Assembly: GCA_028289425.1 (NCBI GenBank)
Contig: JANQPL010000004.1
Location: 310,001-374,000 of the forward strand
Direction: 5' to 3'
Origin: Alphaproteobacteria bacterium
GTDB taxonomy: Bacteria; Pseudomonadota; Alphaproteobacteria; JANQMY01
Length of the DNA stretch: 64,000 nucleotides
Shown piece after piece: positions 49,180-51,160 of the stretch. The translations under genes and the position numbers were made by a program. The notes under the pieces are model-generated. The model saw only the letters and a program-made list of their open reading frames with translations. It was not told the origin of the DNA and searched no databases. How positions within the stretch are numbered: position 1 is the stretch's first letter; every line of letters begins with the position of its first letter.

Positions 49180-49767
49180 TCATCGGTGGGATTTAGCGGC
49201 TGTCTCGTCCAGGAACAGTTCGATCATCCGGCGTAAGCTCGATTTAATCTCGCTCACCGGCATGTTGTAGATATCCCGCAAATCAAAAACGGCCTCGGCC
49301 CGCACGGTGGAGATGATCAGCGCGGTTAGCCGTTCGATGCTTGGTGCGTCGCGGAGACGCTCAGCCAAGGCGTCCCGCAGACTTTGAGCGTGTGCCAGTT
49401 TGCGATAGCTGCGAACGTCTTTCGACAAGCCCGTCGACATCTGCGCACGGATAAGGATTTCGTTTTGAAGAATGTAGTCAATGAGTCGTTCCACATAGAA
49501 CGGCACATCGTCGAACGATTTGGGATAGACGCAGCTCATATCCACTTGCGCATTGATCCAAAGATTAATCGCTTCGATCCGCGCCGCCTTGTCCGGAAAA
49601 TGCTGGTATACCGTGCGCAAAGAAACCCCTGATTCCTTCGCCAGTTCCGCCACCGACAGATCATCGCGGCCGTCCGCCATTTGCGACACCATCGTCTGCA
49701 CAATGGCATCGCGGCTCTGCTGTTTCTTCAGCTCCCTGTTGGCGTTGTTGTAAGCGCGCTGACTCAT
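49180..49767 (-). CDS. TetR family transcriptional regulator
   Basis: 195 residues with the TetR helix-turn-helix LSVAELAKESGVSLRTVYQHF (about 37-57; read here as ELAKESGVSLRTVYQHF). It overlaps the upstream cupin gene by four bases (ATGA), so both are co-translated and the repressor probably controls its own operon through the paired dyads at 50232-50279. Ends at the heparinase-family gene, with which it converges. Confidence 0.87.
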   Translation of the reverse strand: MSQRAYNNANRELKKQQSRDAIVQTMVSQMADGRDDLSVAELAKESGVSLRTVYQHFPDKAARIEAINLWINAQVDMSCVYPKSFDDVPFYVERLIDYILQNEILIRAQMSTGLSKDVRSYRKLAHAQSLRDALAERLRDAPSIERLTALIISTVRAEAVFDLRDIYNMPVSEIKSSLRRMIELFLDETAAKSHR

Positions 49768-50216
49768 GAAAGGTCCGAATACGGATTGAAATTGACACCA
49801 AAACGCTTGCCCAGCTTTGTGAGTTTTTCTGCGTCGCGAGGCATTTGATCGATTTCGGCGTCCATGGCCGCAAACATCTGTCCGCCTTTGCAGTCCGAAA
49901 CGATCGCCAGAATTTTCGTGGTCTTGGTGGCATTTCGATAGGCGTGGATGGTGTTCGCCGGAATGTGAGCAAACGAGCCCGGGGCCAAGGTCTGGGTTTC
50001 GCCGTTGATGGTCAGGTCCAACTGCCCTTCCAAGACATAAAAGGCCTCGTCCCAGGGATGATAGTGGGGCGGGGGGCCGCCCCCTTCCGTGCCCTCTTGG
50101 ATATGCACCTCAAATGGTTTCGAGGAGTCTTCGGGGCCAAAAACGGTGATGGTTTCGCCGATAACCGAAAGCGTTTCCGGGGGGTGTTTGGCGCTGATGA
50201 TGTGGAGATCTGACAT
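49764..50216 (-). CDS. Cupin domain protein, quercetin dioxygenase-like
   Basis: 150-residue single-domain cupin. Motif 1 is PPHYHPWDEAFYVLEG with two His and the Glu ligands; motif 2 ends PANTIHAYRN with the third histidine, so a metal site looks intact. May be a dioxygenase or a binding protein. First gene of the operon with the TetR regulator. Confidence 0.8.
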   Translation of the reverse strand: MSDLHIISAKHPPETLSVIGETITVFGPEDSSKPFEVHIQEGTEGGGPPPHYHPWDEAFYVLEGQLDLTINGETQTLAPGSFAHIPANTIHAYRNATKTTKILAIVSDCKGGQMFAAMDAEIDQMPRDAEKLTKLGKRFGVNFNPYSDLS

Positions 50217-50231
50217 GACAGGCTTCCTTCA

Positions 50232-50279
50232 TTGCACAACTTATGCAATGAAATTAATTTAGATGCACTATTCATGCAA
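50232..50279 (-). promoter_or_regulatory. Two tandem 17-bp dyads upstream of the cupin-tetR operon
   Basis: Reverse strand: TTGCATAAGTTGTGCAA (50232-50248) and TTGCATGAATAGTGCAT (50263-50279), sharing TTGCATrAnTwGTGCAw, with centres 31 bases apart. They lie 16-63 bases before the cupin start, overlapping any promoter. Likely operators of the operon's own TetR protein. Confidence 0.65.
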
Positions 50280-50287
50280 CTAAATTC

Positions 50288-51160
50288 TTACCCCGGCCGC
50301 AACACCACGTCGAAATCGCAGACCATCAGGTCGTCTTCCGGTACATCCTTGAACTGGGGGGCAAATTTTTCCGGCGGTGTAGGGATTTCCGGGAACTGGC
50401 GCACCCCCGTCACGCAAGTGTCGAATCCCGCTTCCTCGAACACATCGACCATCTCGAAGAAGCGGATGCGGTTCGTGTAGAAGCCGGACGTCGCCATGAA
50501 GTCGGATTCCCAGATCCGATCGGAAAACCGCAAATTGTGAAGCGCATTGGCCAAATGGTCCTGAAGATCGATGCGGTGGCTTGCAAACCCGCCCGGTGCC
50601 AGCAGACGCCGAAGCTGCATCATGACCGGCAGAAACTCCGCCCGGCGCACATGTTCAAGCACCGCTTGCGACATTTGGAAGGTCACACTGTTTGACGGAA
50701 TCGTCCGTAGACTGACAAGCCCTTGGGTAAGATAGACCGCATTGCACGCGGCCAGCATGCCGTCGAAAGTACGCGCCTCAAGAACGGCCGTCATGTCATG
50801 GCCCCACGCCTCCAATGCCTGGGCGAGGGCGTGATAGGGGCCCAGCTCCTTTTGTGCAAAGTCGCCTTCGTCAACCAAATAGGTTTTGGCCGACCCGGCG
50901 GCATAGGCTGTGAGGGCCGTTGTTACCGCATCCCCGGGACCCAGTTCGAGCATCGTGAAACCTGGTGCCAAGGGCGTGTCGCCCGCGCTCGAGTGAAACT
51001 CGAACACCTCGATGGCCCGGGATGGGTCATCCATATAACCCAGGCGAAACAGATTGAGCCGCTGCCACAGCCCATAACCGAAGGGCAGGCGCGACAGCAC
51101 GATCTTTGCCGCGATTTTGCCGTACCAGGGGATGCTTTGCTTGACGCGCTCGGAAATCAT
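50288..51160 (-). CDS. SAM-dependent methyltransferase
   Basis: 290 residues with a class I Rossmann methyltransferase core: motif I TMLELGPGDAVTTAL near residue 75, acidic loop YLVDEGDFA, and a post-motif block VTFQMSQAVLEHVRRAEFLPVM. Resembles methyltransferases of polysaccharide clusters. ATG 51160 has GAGGGGG just before it. It is divergent from the glycosyltransferase gene across 105 bases, and the substrate is probably a sugar or glycan. Confidence 0.75.
   Translation of the reverse strand: MISERVKQSIPWYGKIAAKIVLSRLPFGYGLWQRLNLFRLGYMDDPSRAIEVFEFHSSAGDTPLAPGFTMLELGPGDAVTTALTAYAAGSAKTYLVDEGDFAQKELGPYHALAQALEAWGHDMTAVLEARTFDGMLAACNAVYLTQGLVSLRTIPSNSVTFQMSQAVLEHVRRAEFLPVMMQLRRLLAPGGFASHRIDLQDHLANALHNLRFSDRIWESDFMATSGFYTNRIRFFEMVDVFEEAGFDTCVTGVRQFPEIPTPPEKFAPQFKDVPEDDLMVCDFDVVLRPG

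Follow-up and report, generated by a model that had tools for sequence, protein, structure and literature searches.

Paired inverted repeats upstream of a cupin-tetR operon point to a putative self-repressing cassette in an alphaproteobacterium

In the part of the B. subtilis work that is set out in PMC8481877, the regulator QdoR binds two operators in the promoter PqdoI and one in PqdoR; quercetin releases QdoR, and two operators are needed to increase repression. Most of the studied members of the TetR family are repressors, according to an excerpt of PMC3511530. The operator predictor Snowprint, as outlined in an extract of PMC10858194, follows the same logic as is used here, combining autoregulation, an inverted repeat and conservation across homologues. 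We analyzed a 64-kb stretch of DNA, referred to below as the window, in which a cupin gene and a tetR gene follow two inverted repeats. By analogy, QdoR/QdoI is the nearest working counterpart of this locus, the likeness lying in a repressor paired with a cupin enzyme, two (here putative) operators in the enzyme promoter and (here proposed) self-control of the repressor, as far as the excerpted account of QdoR/QdoI goes (PMC8481877). The two systems differ in layout: in that same excerpt (PMC8481877) each of the two B. subtilis genes, regulator and enzyme, has its own promoter, whereas the window genes share one. Moreover, QdoI has two domains and about 337 amino acids, against 150 in the window cupin. 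QdoR was absent among the best 60 profile matches and 30 single-sequence matches to solved structures and among 50 VIA rows for the window TetR, and since these matches revealed no specific relationship, the window TetR was not filed as a QdoR, although a true relative could be missing from such lists. QdoR, which we take to be a TetR-family protein, presumably has an operator sequence that differs from the window operators.

The two genes and the paired repeats

The frames of the cupin and tetR genes overlap (Table 1), and co-transcription is for this reason almost sure. TetR scored 30.3 bits against PF00440 (cut-off 24). Its predicted fold spans residues 10-194 (model pLDDT 78.7), and the model could be aligned with many TetR structures over 159-185 residues, with VIA Z values up to 12.9. 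In the cupin, the motif residues are all there (G45, H51, H53, E57 and G64; G80, P86, H91 and N95), as assigned with what we take to be the motif pattern, and H51, H53, E57 and H91 make up the His/His/Glu/His metal-ligand set. Among solved structures, the cupin matched YxaG/QdoI, the quercetin dioxygenase of B. subtilis, best by sequence (summed E for two domains 3.8e-25), with the metal-ligand positions aligned. By structure, TM1459 ranked first, on a low-confidence model (pLDDT 61) that was used as support alone.

An earlier note on this DNA had described two copies of a 17-bp consensus, three helical turns apart, ahead of a cupin-tetR operon. We recovered both copies as exact matches in a pattern scan with TTGCATRANTWGTGCAW, both on the minus strand, and the place ahead of the operon and the spacing were borne out as well (31 bp from centre to centre). 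There was no further match to TTGCATRANTWGTGCAW in the 64-kb window or in the 5.42-Mb genome, a uniqueness that by itself is weak proof because the pattern was derived from those two sites. The form of the consensus had to be revised: both sites fit the 17-bp pattern, but this is non-palindromic, and each 17-mer forms the centre of a longer inverted repeat, better described as an inverted repeat of the half-site ATTnRTTGCAY. A 7-nt gap separates the TGCA words within each window repeat.

The minus-strand upstream sequence reads ...TTTAGTTGCATGAATAGTGCATCTAAATTAATTTCATTGCATAAGTTGTGCAATGAAGGAAGCCTGTCATG, running into the cupin start codon, and the outer end of the proximal repeat touches the putative ribosome-binding site. 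On the far side, the upstream gene on the same strand (50288-51160) stops one base short of the distal repeat. Its 290-aa product is 83% conserved in the sister species and had no Pfam or NCBIfam match.

Table 1. Positions of the genes, putative operators and related features in the window
Feature	Position	Strand	Remark
Whole cassette, operators + cupin + tetR, 1.1 kb	49180..50287	.	absent at the orthologous place in the sister species (L098)
TetR-family regulator, 195 aa, TetR_N (PF00440, E 3.7e-7)	49180..49767	-	start overlaps cupin stop by 4 nt
Cupin, 150 aa, Cupin_2 (PF07883, E 1.8e-19)	49764..50216	-	
Putative Shine-Dalgarno AAGGAAG, 6 nt before cupin ATG	50223..50229	-	read from sequence
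Proximal operator (putative), 25-bp inverted repeat TTCATTGCATAAGTTGTGCAATGAA; core 50232-50248	50228..50252	-	
Three-base gap separating the two extended repeats	50253..50255	-	
Distal operator (putative), 31-bp inverted repeat AATTTAGTTGCATGAATAGTGCATCTAAATT; core 50263-50279	50256..50286	-	

Relatives and distribution of the cassette

A scan with the TetR protein covered 84,980 species genomes and reached close relatives only, since it used an exact-peptide prefilter. It returned one full-length relative, in L044, a Pseudomonadales MAG. The second match, L045, comprised the DNA-binding domain alone (33%, residues 15-74) and was dropped. L099, from the same gammaproteobacterial family as L044, came from a profile search among 140 genomes of that family. 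Both loci were found via the TetR protein, with the DNA motif not used, and in both a cupin gene is followed by tetR. The proteins of L044 are 49% (cupin) and 47-48% (TetR) identical to those of the window; for L099 the values are 48% (cupin) and 44% (TetR, across the alignment; 47% over the blastp stretch).

The conservation that the earlier note proposed as a check was found: the pair, its spacing and its position recur in L044 and L099, where the TetRs are 47% and 44% identical. The tandem pair is TTGCATATAGTGTGCAA and TTGCACTTCATGTGCAG in L044, spaced by 30 bp, and TTGCATATTGTATGCAA and TTGCAGTTACAGTGCAT in L099, spaced by 32 bp. Inverted repeats are thus present and conserved in all three close members, which are also all that the searched genomes contained, two of them in one family. 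Over the half-sites of the three loci, TGCA is invariant (12/12), a pyrimidine follows it in 11/12 and a T precedes it in 9/12. The TetRs of the window and L044 have the same recognition-helix stretch, GVSLRTVYQHFPDKAAR; that of L099 differs (GVATRTVYVHLPDRESR) while the half-site is kept. In the window and L044, 12-16 bp separate the proximal site from the cupin start codon; in L099 the distance is 77 bp, and the proximal site is therefore not over the ribosome-binding site.

Two loci with more distant TetRs (27%), L046 and L100, are also cupin-then-tetR operons and have TGCA-N6-TGCA upstream of the cupin, in one copy in L046 (before 1064) and in two copies 37 bp apart in L100 (before 1067). 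At least one N6 or N7 repeat arose in 57 of 20,000 shuffles for L046 and 77 of 20,000 for L100, and none of the 20,000 L100 shuffles produced two copies; the N6 class is suggestive only, as it was noticed after inspecting the sequences. Note that the L100 cupin frame (1067-1495) contains one internal stop codon, which could reflect either gene decay or a sequencing error. Five loci whose related TetRs have no upstream cupin (L047, L061, L071, L072 and L073) were free of N6 and N7 repeats. Four of them (L047, L071, L072 and L073) have a TGACATGAAT-type sequence at their own tetR start instead, and the recognition-helix stretch aligned for L047 differs (GVQERTVYRHFPTK). In these four, ACATTCATGTCA-N7-TGACATGAATGT-type inverted repeats, exact in L047, lie over the tetR start; apparently, they would be the operators of that related TetR group itself. 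With the pair kept alongside the cassette and absent at the five loci, the best reading of the window repeats, as the earlier note had suggested, is as TetR-type operators of an autoregulated cupin-tetR operon. The DNA itself documents the symmetry and spacing of the repeats, linkage, gene order, recurrence and the absence of the cassette from the sister species.

Searches for further relatives gave little more. The 41 genomes of the own genus and class neighbours held distant TetRs and nothing closer, the 385 genomes of the class two distant TetR relatives only (26% and 28%), and the 398 genomes of the phylum the own genome only. Among 244 genomes of the order to which L044 belongs, only L044 itself was recovered; the 140 genomes of its family yielded L099 and L100. 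A broader TetR profile matched in 71 of the 385 class genomes, and among the best 30 of those loci (L068-L097) a cupin match was confined to the own locus and L069 (G092 again). Plasmids contained four distant TetRs, none close, and phages and viral contigs no TetR relative. Cupin relatives on plasmids amounted to 100 records, all below 60% identity; records from Cupriavidus (without annotation) and Acaryochloris were checked for context, and the Acaryochloris plasmid cupin had no adjoining tetR.

In the sister species (G001, the sole further member of the genus among the genomes searched), the corresponding locus lies on one contig without N. There, the genes that flank the cassette (83-84% protein identity) are convergent and directly adjoining, with a 4-nt overlap at their stop codons. 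DNA similarity between the window and the sister species ends at ~49118 and resumes at 50291. The abutting flanks indicate that operators, cupin and tetR came or went as one unit, and the genes with their putative operators are thus a self-contained one. The G+C content is 55% for the two genes, 59-63% for the neighbours and 34% for the spacer. The cassette was probably acquired, the alternative being loss in the sister species; acquisition is favoured because the TetR is rare in the class, phylum and order samples and has relatives in another class.

The earlier note had also proposed searching for additional targets genome-wide, and here nothing stood out as a second target. With at most one mismatch, the motif and its reversed control occurred at 35 and 29 places, respectively, in the own genome, and at 29 and 55 in that of L044. 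An extended 25-bp motif with at most three mismatches had 2 matches in the own genome, both of them the operators, against 1 in the control, and 2 in the L044 genome, one being its own operator, again against 1. Fourteen near-match loci of the own genome, drawn from 142 strand matches and the 35 places, were examined: 11 fell within open frames of 100 codons or more, the others being L018, L023 and L026, and none of the 14 was among the extended-motif matches. A regulon was rejected, the motif counts being at control level in both genomes, and the circuit is therefore probably local. At L023 (1490-1520; C12 near 447,950 in the own genome), we noted an intergenic CTAATGTGCAAATTTGCACTAATGTTGCAAAC with the 14-bp palindrome GTGCAAATTTGCAC, probably a site of another regulator.

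Proposed working and rival readings

The cassette is very probably self-repressing, with TetR acting on both sites to repress the cupin and itself until a small molecule releases it. For binding, repression, cooperativity and promoter position, this model draws on the TetR family. TetR would bind each inverted repeat as a dimer; with centres 30-32 bp apart, about three turns, both dimers would lie on one face of the DNA, favouring joint binding. No sigma-70 promoter was recognisable in the window by promoter scan. The best -35/-10 pair scored 7/12 in the window and 8/12 in L044 (TTGCAT-16-TATATT, at the matching place), and the A+T-rich stretch around 50253-50255 presumably holds the -10 region. 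With TetR bound, the A+T-rich DNA that the sites cover and enclose, and in which the promoter is placed, would be closed; in the window, TetR occupancy would also reach the cupin ribosome-binding site, so that expression of both cupin and tetR would stay low. Release of TetR would come from a small molecule, probably the substrate of the cupin or a similar compound. The cupin may consume this molecule, and upon its removal repression would return. As a guess, the ligand could be a phenolic compound, for instance a flavonoid, and the cupin a dioxygenase.

Chance resemblance would be the simplest alternative, as the spacer has merely 33.8% G+C and repeats can be found when patterns are picked by eye. 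Its probability seems close to negligible. A TGCAY-N5-RTGCA pair at 29-33 bp arose in 0 of 60,000 composition-matched Markov shuffles of the 160 nt upstream of the window cupin, and in 0 and 1 of 60,000 in the same test of L044 and L099; recurrence in these two genomes also disfavours chance. Any such tandem pattern (gap 11-18) occurred in just 4 of 398 phylum genomes, the own genome included (the other three were G676, G536 and G466), near the reversed control of 3 of 398. A tandem pair anywhere in a genome is about at background (~1 genome in 100), whereas a pair at one given promoter is not. We consider it very unlikely that the proximal repeat is a terminator or mRNA hairpin, serving 50288-51160 or an opposing transcript, with the distal repeat a degenerate copy of it. 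On the plus strand, a terminator scan did pick up the proximal repeat, with a stem of 9 pairs. However, only 3 of these are G-C, making the stem poor in G-C, one terminator was found against 0.9 expected in shuffles, and none was reported on the minus strand, which carries the genes. A hairpin would also leave the second repeat, the 30-32-bp spacing and the conservation of TGCA in three genomes unexplained.

The link between sites and regulator is circumstantial, and isolated weak motif matches occur at other places in the genome, so that the repeats might belong to a different, unlinked regulator while tetR acts elsewhere. This is improbable, given that the sites accompany the cassette in three genomes, two of them gammaproteobacterial and one alphaproteobacterial, and do not occur where it is absent, and that the motif and its extended form show no excess over their controls. 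TetR could instead be an activator or dual regulator, the distal site aiding and the proximal site limiting transcription. The window has no clear -35 box, and a missing -35 box is common at activated promoters; in L099, moreover, a good distance separates both sites from the start codon downstream. Activation is nevertheless unlikely, as the proximal site of the window and L044 is close to the start codon, a repressor position, and repression prevails among the studied family members, to go by the excerpt of PMC3511530.

Comparison with known systems

FrrA, a flavonoid-responsive TetR (PDB 6g8g), has the same overall fold as the window TetR (VIA Z 11.0, 174 residues, rmsd 3.4), but it is tied with dozens of other TetR proteins and is 15% identical to the window TetR. 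TM1459, other single-domain manganese cupins and the Ni-quercetinase QueD share the single-domain cupin fold, as comparisons of both the sequence and the model (pLDDT 61) indicate, at about 22-27% identity to the window cupin. On a plasmid of Sinorhizobium sp. K101, a distant TetR relative (26%) adjoins a cupin gene (N0Q91_RS23135/RS23140), but the order is reversed, with tetR first, and there is no TGCA repeat upstream. A full-text literature search, judged by title and abstract opening and with subscription papers partly outside its range, found no description of this cupin-tetR pair; the family and its operator sequence seem, apparently, to be undescribed.

Tentatively, the cassette could be a sensor unit portable between proteobacterial classes, its operator sequence kept although the repressors have drifted to 44-47% identity, with the family and its signal compound new to description. 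A wider clade would then retain the TGCA half-site, its gap shifting by one base (N7 to N6) together with the regulator. The regulator-operator pair is well bounded, by 12 half-sites from three genomes, which makes it useful as an orthogonal repressor part, and the adjoining cupin suggests a short list of candidate ligands. Ideas on how such circuits work are unchanged. In all likelihood the cassette is a chemical sensor that represses itself, ordinary and of a kind already known.
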